64,000 bases of DNA, taken from positions 1-64,000 of the forward strand of contig JAACTB010000014.1 in the NCBI GenBank assembly GCA_009993605.1, given 5' to 3'. Positions 37,202-39,709 of the stretch are shown piece by piece. The position numbers and the translations under genes are program-made. Source of the DNA: Erythrobacter sp. (GTDB lineage: Bacteria; Pseudomonadota; Alphaproteobacteria; Sphingomonadales; Sphingomonadaceae). Positions within the stretch are counted from its first letter, which is position 1; every line of letters begins with the position of its first letter. The notes below the pieces were generated by a model that made no database searches, had not been told where the DNA came from, and was given only the letters and a program-made list of their open reading frames with translations.

Positions 37202-37711
37202 ATGTCCATGTCTCTTCTTCAATCGACCAAGCGTCCTGCCCTGCTCGCCGCGGGGGCGATGGCTCTGGCGGCGATCGGCTCCGCCACCCCCGCATCGGCG
37301 CAATATGCGCAGGAATTGCGGCACGATCCCTCGCGTTGCAGCAGTGGGTCTGCCGTGTGGGTAACCATCGACGGGATCAAGCCGGGCGGCGGCACGCTGC
37401 GCGTCCAGTCCTATCGCGCGACGAAGGGCGATTGGCTCGAATCGGGTCGCTGGCTCAACCGGATCGAACTGCCCGCCCGCGCCGGATCGATGCGGGTCTG
37501 TATGCCGCTGCCCGCCAGCGGCCATTACGGCATCGCGGTCCGTCACGACGTCAACAATAACGGCAAGACCGACCTGTCGACCGATGGCGGCGCGATGTCG
37601 AACAATCCTTCGCTGAATATCTGGAACCTCGGCAAGCCGAGCTACAAGAAGGTGGGCTTCGATGTCGGGCGCACGCCTGCATCGATCGCCATCACAATGC
37701 GTTATCGCTGA
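37202..37711 (+). CDS. DUF2141 domain exported protein
   Basis: A 169-residue secreted protein with a signal peptide ending ATPASA, followed by a DUF2141 beta-sandwich: SAVWVTIDGIKPGGGTLRVQ, PLPASGHYGIAVRHDVNNNGK, and KVGFDVGRTPASIAITMRYR. Function of the domain is unknown. It stands alone between rpe and the convergent Tam41-like gene. Confidence 0.87.
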   Translation: MSMSLLQSTKRPALLAAGAMALAAIGSATPASAQYAQELRHDPSRCSSGSAVWVTIDGIKPGGGTLRVQSYRATKGDWLESGRWLNRIELPARAGSMRVCMPLPASGHYGIAVRHDVNNNGKTDLSTDGGAMSNNPSLNIWNLGKPSYKKVGFDVGRTPASIAITMRYR

Positions 37712-37733: not shown

Positions 37734-38642
37734 TTACCGCTGACGCGAGGCCGCGCGCCGACGCTTGCGCCACAATTCCCATGCCGCCCCCGGCATTGCG
37801 AGCAAGGGATGGCGCGCGCGAAACGGCGTGACTTCGAGCGCGATCCCGGTGTGGCGTTCGAGCTTCCACGCCCCGTAGGCCGCCGCGTTGTCGAAGGTGG
37901 TCGTGGCCTTGGCGAGCCGCAGGATGTTGAGCGGTTTCCCGACCCGCCTGCGTTTTTTCCACCAGGCCAGAATGGCCCGGCGCGGCTGAGGCTCCAATTC
38001 GGGCGCGAGTTCGTCTCCCTCGCACGCATAGGCGATCCCCGCATCCTCCCACGCGAGCGGCAACAGCCCCTCGAAATGCGCGGCATTGGCGGCGAGGATC
38101 GAATGCTCGCGCCCCGGCGGTTCGACACGGAATTCGGCGGCGTAGGTCTCGCGGAACAGCGCCTTCCAATAATCGCTCGCCGCGCCCTTGCGCGGGCCCA
38201 GAGCCGCTGCGAGGCGACCGGCCGTGCGCGCCGCCCCCGCCACCGCGCTAATGACCCGTCCGCGCACGGCGTCGTTCCTCGCCCAGACCAATGCGCTCGG
38301 CTGGACGAACCGCGCCCAGATCGTGGTGTCGCGCGACTGGCCTTCCGCCGCCTTCGCGAAGCGTTCGAGCGACAACGTCGCCGTCTTCGCGCGCAGGGGC
38401 GTGCCGCCGATCATCCGTTCGTGATAGCCGACGCGCGGCCAGATCCGCTCCTGCTGGCGCCCCGGCAGCAGGAGATAGAAATCGAGCACGCCCTCGAGCG
38501 ATCCGGTGCGCAGATTCGATCCGTAGAACAGCACCGCATCGGCCCCCTCGTCCTGCGCGAGAGCCTTGGCGAACGCAGCCACCTCCTCGCGCACCGGCGC
38601 GGCGAGGCTTTGCCTGATGCGGGTTTCGAGCGTTCCGCTCAC
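37734..38642 (-). CDS. Tam41-like nucleotidyltransferase (possible CDP-DAG synthase)
   Basis: A 302-residue protein with a nucleotidyltransferase-like start: VLFYGSN (37-43) then GVLDFYLLL (51-59), followed by a conserved-looking aromatic region (IWPRVGYHERMIGG) and a basic C-terminus (LRLAKATTTF, WKLERHTG). The order YGS, LDF-hydrophobic, W/H/Y region, and C-terminal K/Y/W helix resembles mitochondrial Tam41, which makes CDP-diacylglycerol from phosphatidic acid and CTP. The GTG start overlaps the diacylglycerol kinase stop by four bases; that kinase would supply phosphatidic acid. The assignment is by motif and context only; an unrelated nucleotidyltransferase role is possible. Confidence 0.65.
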   Translation of the reverse strand: MSGTLETRIRQSLAAPVREEVAAFAKALAQDEGADAVLFYGSNLRTGSLEGVLDFYLLLPGRQQERIWPRVGYHERMIGGTPLRAKTATLSLERFAKAAEGQSRDTTIWARFVQPSALVWARNDAVRGRVISAVAGAARTAGRLAAALGPRKGAASDYWKALFRETYAAEFRVEPPGREHSILAANAAHFEGLLPLAWEDAGIAYACEGDELAPELEPQPRRAILAWWKKRRRVGKPLNILRLAKATTTFDNAAAYGAWKLERHTGIALEVTPFRARHPLLAMPGAAWELWRKRRRAASRQR

Positions 38643-39709
38643 GCGCTCACGAACGTCAGCTCGGGGCCCTGCGCGACCAGATAGCGCCCCGCGGGGAACG
38701 CCTCGCCATCGAGGATGAACTGGTCGCCGATTGCGAATTCGAACGAATCGACGTCGCGCTGGTGATAGCCGCCGCGCTCCAGCCAGCCGGGCCGCCAACC
38801 GGCGAGGATCAGCGGCAGGCTCGCCATCATTCTTCTGCGCGCGCGATCGAGGACGGCGAGCTTCAGCCCCGAACGCCTGGTTCCGAACATCTTCAGCCCC
38901 AGCGGCATCCGGTGGAGCGTCGAGGCCATCAGGATCATCCGGCGCGCGGGATCGCCATGGCCCGAATGCGCCAGAATTTCCCCGCCCGGATAGAGCCGGA
39001 CCGTCAATTCGACCCCGCGCCGCCAGGGATTGTCGTTCGCACCGAACATGCCCTGCACCACGCCCCAGGCGCTGGTCATGCCGACCGCCAGGCTGTCGAA
39101 CAGACCCATGGAATGCGCCTCCTGCCCCGCGCGCACGCCGAGCGTGAACGCGCCTGCCCCAAGGATGAAGCCGCGCACCGGCAGGCGCTCGCTCTCTTTG
39201 TCGAGCGCGCTGATGTCGAGCGGGCGGCGGGTCACCCGGCTGCCGGTATGGAAGGCGTCGATCGCCTGCGCGAGCGACCAGTCGGCAGGCGCGCCGATAT
39301 CGACGTTGAGCGCGTTGGTCTTGCCCTTGGGCAATACGGCAAGGACCGGCCAATCGTCGCCGAACACGCCCGCGCCGCAGGTCAATACGTCGCGCACCGT
39401 GCCGTCGCCGCCGCTGATGATGAGGTAATCGACCCCGCGCGCGGCGAAATCGGCGAGGACTTCGGTGATCTGACCGCGCTTTTCAGGGGTCGCCAGAACC
39501 ACGCGTTCGCGATCGCCGATCGCAAGATCCTGCCCCTTGTTGCGGTGGCTGCGCGGATTGTAGATGACGCCGATAAGCGGCCCATCCGCCTTCGCTTCGC
39601 CCCGCCGCCCGGACGCATCCGAACGCCCGACAGCGGCCGCGCCCCCACCCGACACGCGCCGCGAGCCCTGGTCCGGCATATCGCCGAATTCGTGGATGGA
39701 GCTGTTCAT
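38639..39709 (-). CDS. diacylglycerol kinase catalytic-domain protein
   Basis: A 356-residue lipid kinase of the DAGK_cat family, phosphorylating diacylglycerol (or a related lipid) to phosphatidic acid. Visible: GVIYNPRSHRNKG, the nucleotide-binding GGDGTVRDVL (about 100-109), PKGKTNALNVD and a C-terminal DGEAFPAGR. Start at 39709 (MNSSIHEFGDMPD) is chosen over the extended frame, which is unlike the family. The first ~40 residues are low-complexity. It is translationally coupled to the Tam41-like gene. Confidence 0.92.
   Translation of the reverse strand: MNSSIHEFGDMPDQGSRRVSGGGAAAVGRSDASGRRGEAKADGPLIGVIYNPRSHRNKGQDLAIGDRERVVLATPEKRGQITEVLADFAARGVDYLIISGGDGTVRDVLTCGAGVFGDDWPVLAVLPKGKTNALNVDIGAPADWSLAQAIDAFHTGSRVTRRPLDISALDKESERLPVRGFILGAGAFTLGVRAGQEAHSMGLFDSLAVGMTSAWGVVQGMFGANDNPWRRGVELTVRLYPGGEILAHSGHGDPARRMILMASTLHRMPLGLKMFGTRRSGLKLAVLDRARRRMMASLPLILAGWRPGWLERGGYHQRDVDSFEFAIGDQFILDGEAFPAGRYLVAQGPELTFVSA

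Follow-up and report, generated by a model that had tools for sequence, protein, structure and literature searches.

The two overlapping genes at positions 37,734 to 39,709 of the window (the whole 64,000-nucleotide stretch of Erythrobacter sp. DNA that was analysed) most likely correspond to CpgB and CpgC, the gene pair that acts in making ceramide phosphoglycerate, and are named so here on the basis of the gene order in relatives and the clade to which the kinase belongs. We consider it reasonably probable that they form the CpgB-CpgC core of this pathway, in which CpgC would make CDP-ceramide from ceramide-1-phosphate and CTP. The features are as follows.

37734-38642, minus strand: gene for the CpgC-type protein (302 aa, GTG start), with a nucleotidyltransferase and winged-helix fold of the Tam41 kind in the model
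38639-39709, minus strand: gene for the predicted CpgB-type ceramide kinase (356 aa, ATG start), with a DAGK_cat domain and GGDG
38639-38642, minus strand: GTGA overlap, joining the stop of the kinase gene and the start of the CpgC-type gene
38517-38528, minus strand: FYGS motif (residues 39-42), the nucleotidyltransferase GS signature of the CpgC-type protein
38481-38483, minus strand: D54, the conserved acid after the GS motif of the CpgC-type protein
38298-38393, minus strand: RAKxA (residues 84-88) and WARFxQP (residues 109-115), a conserved stretch of the CpgC-type protein
39401-39412, minus strand: GGDG of the kinase (residues 100-103)

Where translation of the kinase begins is uncertain, as an in-frame GTG is also present upstream.

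The kinase and its pairing with the CpgC-type gene

Searches with the window protein (the CpgC-type protein) found homologues in 117 of 149 genomes sampled within its GTDB family and in 44 of 385 sampled within its class, indicating that the pair is not a chance arrangement. When the species collection was scanned, at least 581 stretches were confirmed as relatives, and the best 80 of these, from alpha-, beta- and gammaproteobacteria, make up the named loci below. The four-base overlap described in the original prediction is borne out by the GTGA at 38639-38642, and it is readable in 27 of the 30 best family loci. Conservation of the kinase/Tam41-like pairing, which the original prediction had put forward as a check on itself, was likewise found: the kinase gene lies directly before the CpgC-type gene on the same strand in 30/30 loci (the 30 best of the 117 family matches), and also directly precedes it in 22/22 class-search loci (20 outside the family and two inside), in 8/8 loci from the family of the Caulobacteraceae genome L165 and in 66/80 named loci, although the class, named and Caulobacteraceae-type sets share some genomes and their counts are therefore not independent. 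Identical kinases occur at L061 and L113 and at L074 and L156, while L165 and L184 are one contig. The 14 named loci in which the kinase does not directly precede comprise eight with no kinase match, five with the kinase on the opposite strand and one with it farther away. In these 14 loci (L086-L099, mostly Burkholderiales and Panacagrimonas), the gene immediately ahead of CpgC is of the CpgA type.

CpgC-type genes were also observed in 17 plasmid records, 13 from Roseomonas, two from Pseudomonas and one each from Diaphorobacter and Qipengyuania, and 4/5 of the opened records carry more genes of the phosphosphingolipid cluster. The cluster is visible on annotated Roseomonas and Pseudomonas plasmids, where the CpgC-type protein is labelled hypothetical.

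The kinase matches PF00781 (DAGK_cat; E = 8.8e-13), possesses GGDG, and has a single cysteine in the whole protein and no eukaryotic CxxxCxxC motif; the features reported for the CpgB ceramide kinase are DAGK_cat with GGDG and without the eukaryotic CxxxCxxC (PMC10331486). The DAGK_cat domain and GGDG are shared with the YegS/diacylglycerol kinase family, but the score of the window kinase against TIGR00147 (YegS family) is 35.6, below the cut-off of 118.65, and in the kinase tree it groups with CpgB, far from Escherichia coli YegS. There it falls, together with the L178-L182 kinases, in a 25-row clade (100/100) that contains five of the six kinases from the family of the L165 genome, the source of complete clusters, with the L183 kinase outside. 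This tree was built from selected loci, with the window kinase entered minus its first 40 residues and with L004, L067 and L177 left out as too short, and its root is weak because E. coli YegS is the single outgroup, on a long branch. Beyond the window, the genome has two more DAGK_cat genes (contig C23, 113278-113622, plus strand; contig C1, 405437-405613, plus strand); neither was matched by the kinase queries at E = 1e-3, and hence both are absent from the tree.

Sphingolipid genes around the pair in relatives

The clearest view of the gene order comes from locus L182, which derives from the GTDB family of the L165 genome and reads AasR-CerR-AcpR-Spt-CpgC-CpgB-CpgA-phosphoesterase-(DUF2141)-HIT-LptG2-LptF2-bCerS-nucleotidyltransferase-CpgD. 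Except for the extra DUF2141 gene, this agrees with the published order of CC_1165-CC_1152 in Caulobacter (PMC11324152), and the family of the window protein occupies the place of CC_1161 (CpgC), between CpgB and Spt. Orthology to C. crescentus CC_1161 rests on gene order in relatives; the homologues in the L165 family are 47-55% identical to the window protein, which matched just 8/60 genomes of that family. More broadly, an Spt-like gene lies within about 8 kb of the pair in 15 of the 20 class loci opened (out of 44 matching class genomes), counting L070 with only 35% identity and L079 truncated by a contig end. The same 20 loci contain AasR in 14 cases, CerR in 11 and AcpR in 11, some of the misses being on short contigs. 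Among the 80 named loci the corresponding counts are Spt 43, AasR 41, CpgA-like 40, LptG2 55, LptF2 54, phosphoesterase 50 and bCerS 33.

A DUF2141-type gene is also present in the window (37202-37711, plus strand), downstream of the CpgC-type gene and convergent with it. Homologues of this gene lie in the opened stretch of 24/80 named loci, 5/20 class loci and 7/8 loci of the L165 family, and the portions available of the published account of the Caulobacter cluster (PMC11324152) do not mention it. Its product is possibly an envelope partner.

The closest known counterpart of the window pair is CpgB-CpgC of C. crescentus (CC_1160-CC_1161, CCNA_01218-01219): it is the same pair as judged by the gene order in relatives, the window kinase falls in one clade with kinases from complete clusters, and the homologous pair stands beside Spt in many genomes. 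Unlike in the C. crescentus cluster, however, the pair of the Erythrobacter genome is not on the Spt contig, and CpgA and CpgD were not found in this genome (searched at E = 1e-12 and 1e-15, respectively). Its Spt-like gene (51% identity, E = 3.6e-135) is on another contig, and the link of the window pair to sphingolipids is therefore by homology and not by neighbours; sphingolipid genes of Sphingomonadales have been described as scattered (PMC11324152). Spt was found in 147 of the 149 family genomes and is consequently of no use as a predictor of CpgC. The two genomes without Spt, G056 and G082, have CpgC matches, that of G056 being a 59-residue fragment.

The placement of the pair beside Spt in relatives, in the Caulobacter order, indicates a kinase of the ceramide kinase type, and by homology the window kinase is most likely CpgB-type and ceramide-phosphorylating. 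The original prediction had taken it for a diacylglycerol kinase that makes phosphatidic acid, a reading that gives way here to the CpgB clade and to the ceramide-synthesis genes surrounding the pair in many relatives.

Fold and active site of the CpgC-type protein

The CpgC-type protein resembles Tam41 in modelled fold and in active site, while lying outside PF09139 by the cut-off of that family. AlphaFold2, run without templates on 48 sequences, gave a confident model of the window protein (pLDDT 93.9, pTM 0.90). Foldseek against the PDB placed Tam41 at all of ranks 1-5 (E = 2.4e-9 to 1.5e-7, with TM of only 0.49-0.57), and in VIA-align the model matched the Tam41 structures 7ecd (Z = 16.9, rmsd 3.2, 219 residues aligned), 6ig4 (Z = 16.4) and 6ig2 (Z = 16.2) versus Z = 8.9 for the best other family, aminoglycoside adenylyltransferase. 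A second template-free model, of the L165 CpgC (pLDDT 94.5; built on an alignment largely overlapping that of the window protein), gave Z = 18.2 to 7ecd (rmsd 3.2, 227 aligned) and 8.2 to the best other family. The structural match to Tam41 covers residues 15-250, with the C-terminal helices outside it; residues 218-302 form basic, partly amphipathic helices with a net charge of +17, and the C-terminal part of Tam41 is membrane-binding.

The active site points in the same direction. Y40, G41, S42 and D54 are invariant in both alignments (48/48 and 20/20 rows). These residues include the nucleotidyltransferase GS start that the original prediction had read from the sequence (FYGS, residues 39-42), and they show the conservation of the GS and D54 residues on which that prediction had staked itself. 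Residue 56 is Tyr in 48/48 and 19/20 rows, that is 67/68 over two alignments that both contain the window protein. Many nucleotidyltransferases have a second acid at the position matching residue 56, and Tyr56 therefore suggests that the second acidic residue was lost. This agrees with what is reported for Tam41, which is described as keeping a single acidic residue after losing two of the three found in nucleotidyltransferases (PMC11646218). In total, 33 columns are invariant in the 48-row alignment A3, which spans alpha-, beta- and gammaproteobacteria.

At the sequence level, the window protein had no family in Pfam, NCBIfam or PADLOC, and PF09139 matched 0/48 rows of alignment A3 but is listed for 2/20 members of alignment A1, L060 being one of these. 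The divergent CpgC proteins of L060 and L190, each beside a kinase, match PF09139 with E = 5.5e-5 and 1.4e-4; the best relatives score 23.1 and 21.8 bits, both under the gathering score of 24 bits. The conserved stretch with RAKxA and WARFxQP overlaps the part that matches PF09139 in two relatives. Genome-wide, PF09139 matched 1/289 and 1/398 genomes, each time a CpgC-type protein beside a kinase, with none over the cut-off, and it matched 0/14 control genomes. Caulobacter vibrioides was among these controls, and the CDP-diacylglycerol-synthase domain reported for CC_1161 was thus not reproduced with PF09139. When the PDB was searched by sequence, using the window protein, A1, L060 and A5 as queries, Tam41 was not among the hits, and the best nucleotidyltransferase was 9xbd (E = 0.17, query A5).

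Compared with Tam41/TAMM41, the CDP-diacylglycerol synthase of mitochondria and Firmicutes (PF09139; 6ig2, 6ig4, 7ecd), the CpgC-type protein has in common the nucleotidyltransferase and winged-helix fold, the YGS motif and the apparent loss of the second acidic residue. It differs in being only 11-13% identical in the aligned part, in having no PF09139 match of its own, and in the ceramide gene context of its relatives, which is not a glycerophospholipid one. Hence the Tam41-like layout proposed in the original prediction stands as regards the fold but not as regards membership of PF09139 at its cut-off, and in the structure comparisons no other nucleotidyltransferase family matched better, a better match of that sort being what the prediction had named as counting against it.

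Candidate reaction and the distribution of CpgA and CpgD

In Caulobacter, formation of ceramide phosphoglycerate (CPG) requires cpgB and cpgC, while the second unit (CPG2) requires cpgA and cpgD, and CpgA is dispensable for the first head group; CpgB has been shown by assay to be a ceramide kinase, and CpgD makes CDP-glycerate (PMC10331486, PMC12275187, PMC13228409). Mutants in CC_1161 (CpgC) lose ceramide phosphoglycerate (PMC11324152), and the mechanism of CpgC has been described as unidentified (PMC12275187; still so in May 2026, PMC13228409). An InterPro domain suggesting a CDP-diacylglycerol synthase was noted for CC_1161, with NDP-activated ceramide floated as one possibility (PMC11324152). 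Accordingly, the gene pair in Caulobacter and the idea of an NDP-activated ceramide are already known (as given in the available parts of PMC11324152), and what is new here is the evidence for a Tam41-type fold, together with the signature at the active site and the pattern of genes. The term 'CDP-ceramide' did not occur among the literature matches listed, from which its absence from print does not follow.

In the mechanism we propose, the CpgB-type kinase would convert ceramide to ceramide-1-phosphate, and the Tam41-fold CpgC would then move CMP from CTP onto ceramide-1-phosphate, yielding CDP-ceramide and pyrophosphate. A separate transferase would subsequently swap CMP for the first head group, which is glycerate in Caulobacter. 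Taken together, the CpgB-clade kinase, the ceramide-cluster context and the Caulobacter genetics make ceramide-1-phosphate, and not phosphatidic acid, the likely lipid substrate of CpgC. By analogy with Tam41 and with the Caulobacter pair, CTP is most likely the donor and CDP-ceramide the product, and the sphingomonad pair most likely plays the same role.

The distribution of the other two genes agrees with this scheme. Strong matches to CpgA (E <= 1e-50) and CpgD (E <= 1e-30), by cut-offs chosen after a gap was seen in the tables, occur in an identical set of 44/149 family genomes, 43 of them with CpgC; six genomes with weaker matches were dropped for each protein, and Fisher P values for the co-occurrence overstate the evidence because the sampled genomes are related. 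With an identity of only 35-39%, the CpgD matches in G028, G043, G067, G112 and G123 may represent different cytidylyltransferases. One genome, G017, has CpgA and CpgD but no CpgC match, which counts against strict nesting. The Erythrobacter genome itself is one of 74/149 family genomes (74 of the 117 with CpgC) that possess CpgC without a strong CpgA or CpgD match. The CpgC step in these genomes would therefore be independent of the CDP-glycerate made by CpgD, which fits the activation of ceramide-1-phosphate by CTP. We see about an even chance that CpgC represents a branch of the Tam41 superfamily specific for ceramide, and that its CDP-ceramide feeds another transferase, possibly for a head group other than glycerate, in these 74 of 117 genomes.

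Other readings of the pair have to be weighed against CDP-ceramide synthesis. The original prediction also proposed that a diacylglycerol kinase supplies phosphatidic acid, from which the Tam41-like protein makes CDP-diacylglycerol by a second route beside CdsA. The Tam41 fold and signature are compatible with such a reaction, as is phosphatidic acid being the known lipid substrate of Tam41 (PMC7018664, PMC11646218), but the kinase belongs to the CpgB clade, the pair lies within ceramide clusters in relatives, and what Caulobacter mutants at the CpgC place lose is ceramide phosphoglycerate (PMC11324152). Moreover, a CdsA-type gene is present in the Erythrobacter genome, so that no gap in the supply of CDP-diacylglycerol has to be postulated. 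The proposal found no support here, and we regard it as quite improbable.

It also seems unlikely that CpgC joins glycerate, or phosphoglycerate from an activated donor, straight to ceramide-1-phosphate without a CDP-ceramide intermediate. Such a step corresponds to the scheme of Zik and colleagues, in which CpgC turns ceramide phosphate into ceramide phosphoglycerate (via PMC11324152), and the available portions of the published accounts name no separate transferase for it (PMC11324152, PMC12275187, PMC10331486, PMC13228409). However, direct attachment was judged energetically not very favorable (PMC11324152), a nucleotidyltransferase fold whose closest match is an enzyme that uses CTP speaks for the transfer of a nucleotide, and the maker of CDP-glycerate has no strong match in the 74 CpgC-bearing family genomes described above. 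That CpgC is instead a catalytically dead or regulatory relative aiding the kinase or the transferase is hardly credible: the Tyr at the second acidic position could be taken in this sense, but active Tam41 is likewise reported with a single acidic residue (PMC11646218), and the 33 invariant columns are maintained across three proteobacterial classes.

Ceramide phosphoglycerate lipids help Caulobacter to survive without lipopolysaccharide, and for the CpgC step of their synthesis the Tam41-type fold offers a concrete candidate reaction, a candidate catalytic Asp and a two-substrate assay. The pattern of a CpgB-CpgC core versus a CpgA-CpgD add-on predicts genomes that stop at one head group. 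If CDP-ceramide synthesis by CpgC is true, the range of the Tam41 fold would widen beyond glycerophospholipids to include sphingolipids, and CDP-ceramide would be an activated sphingolipid.
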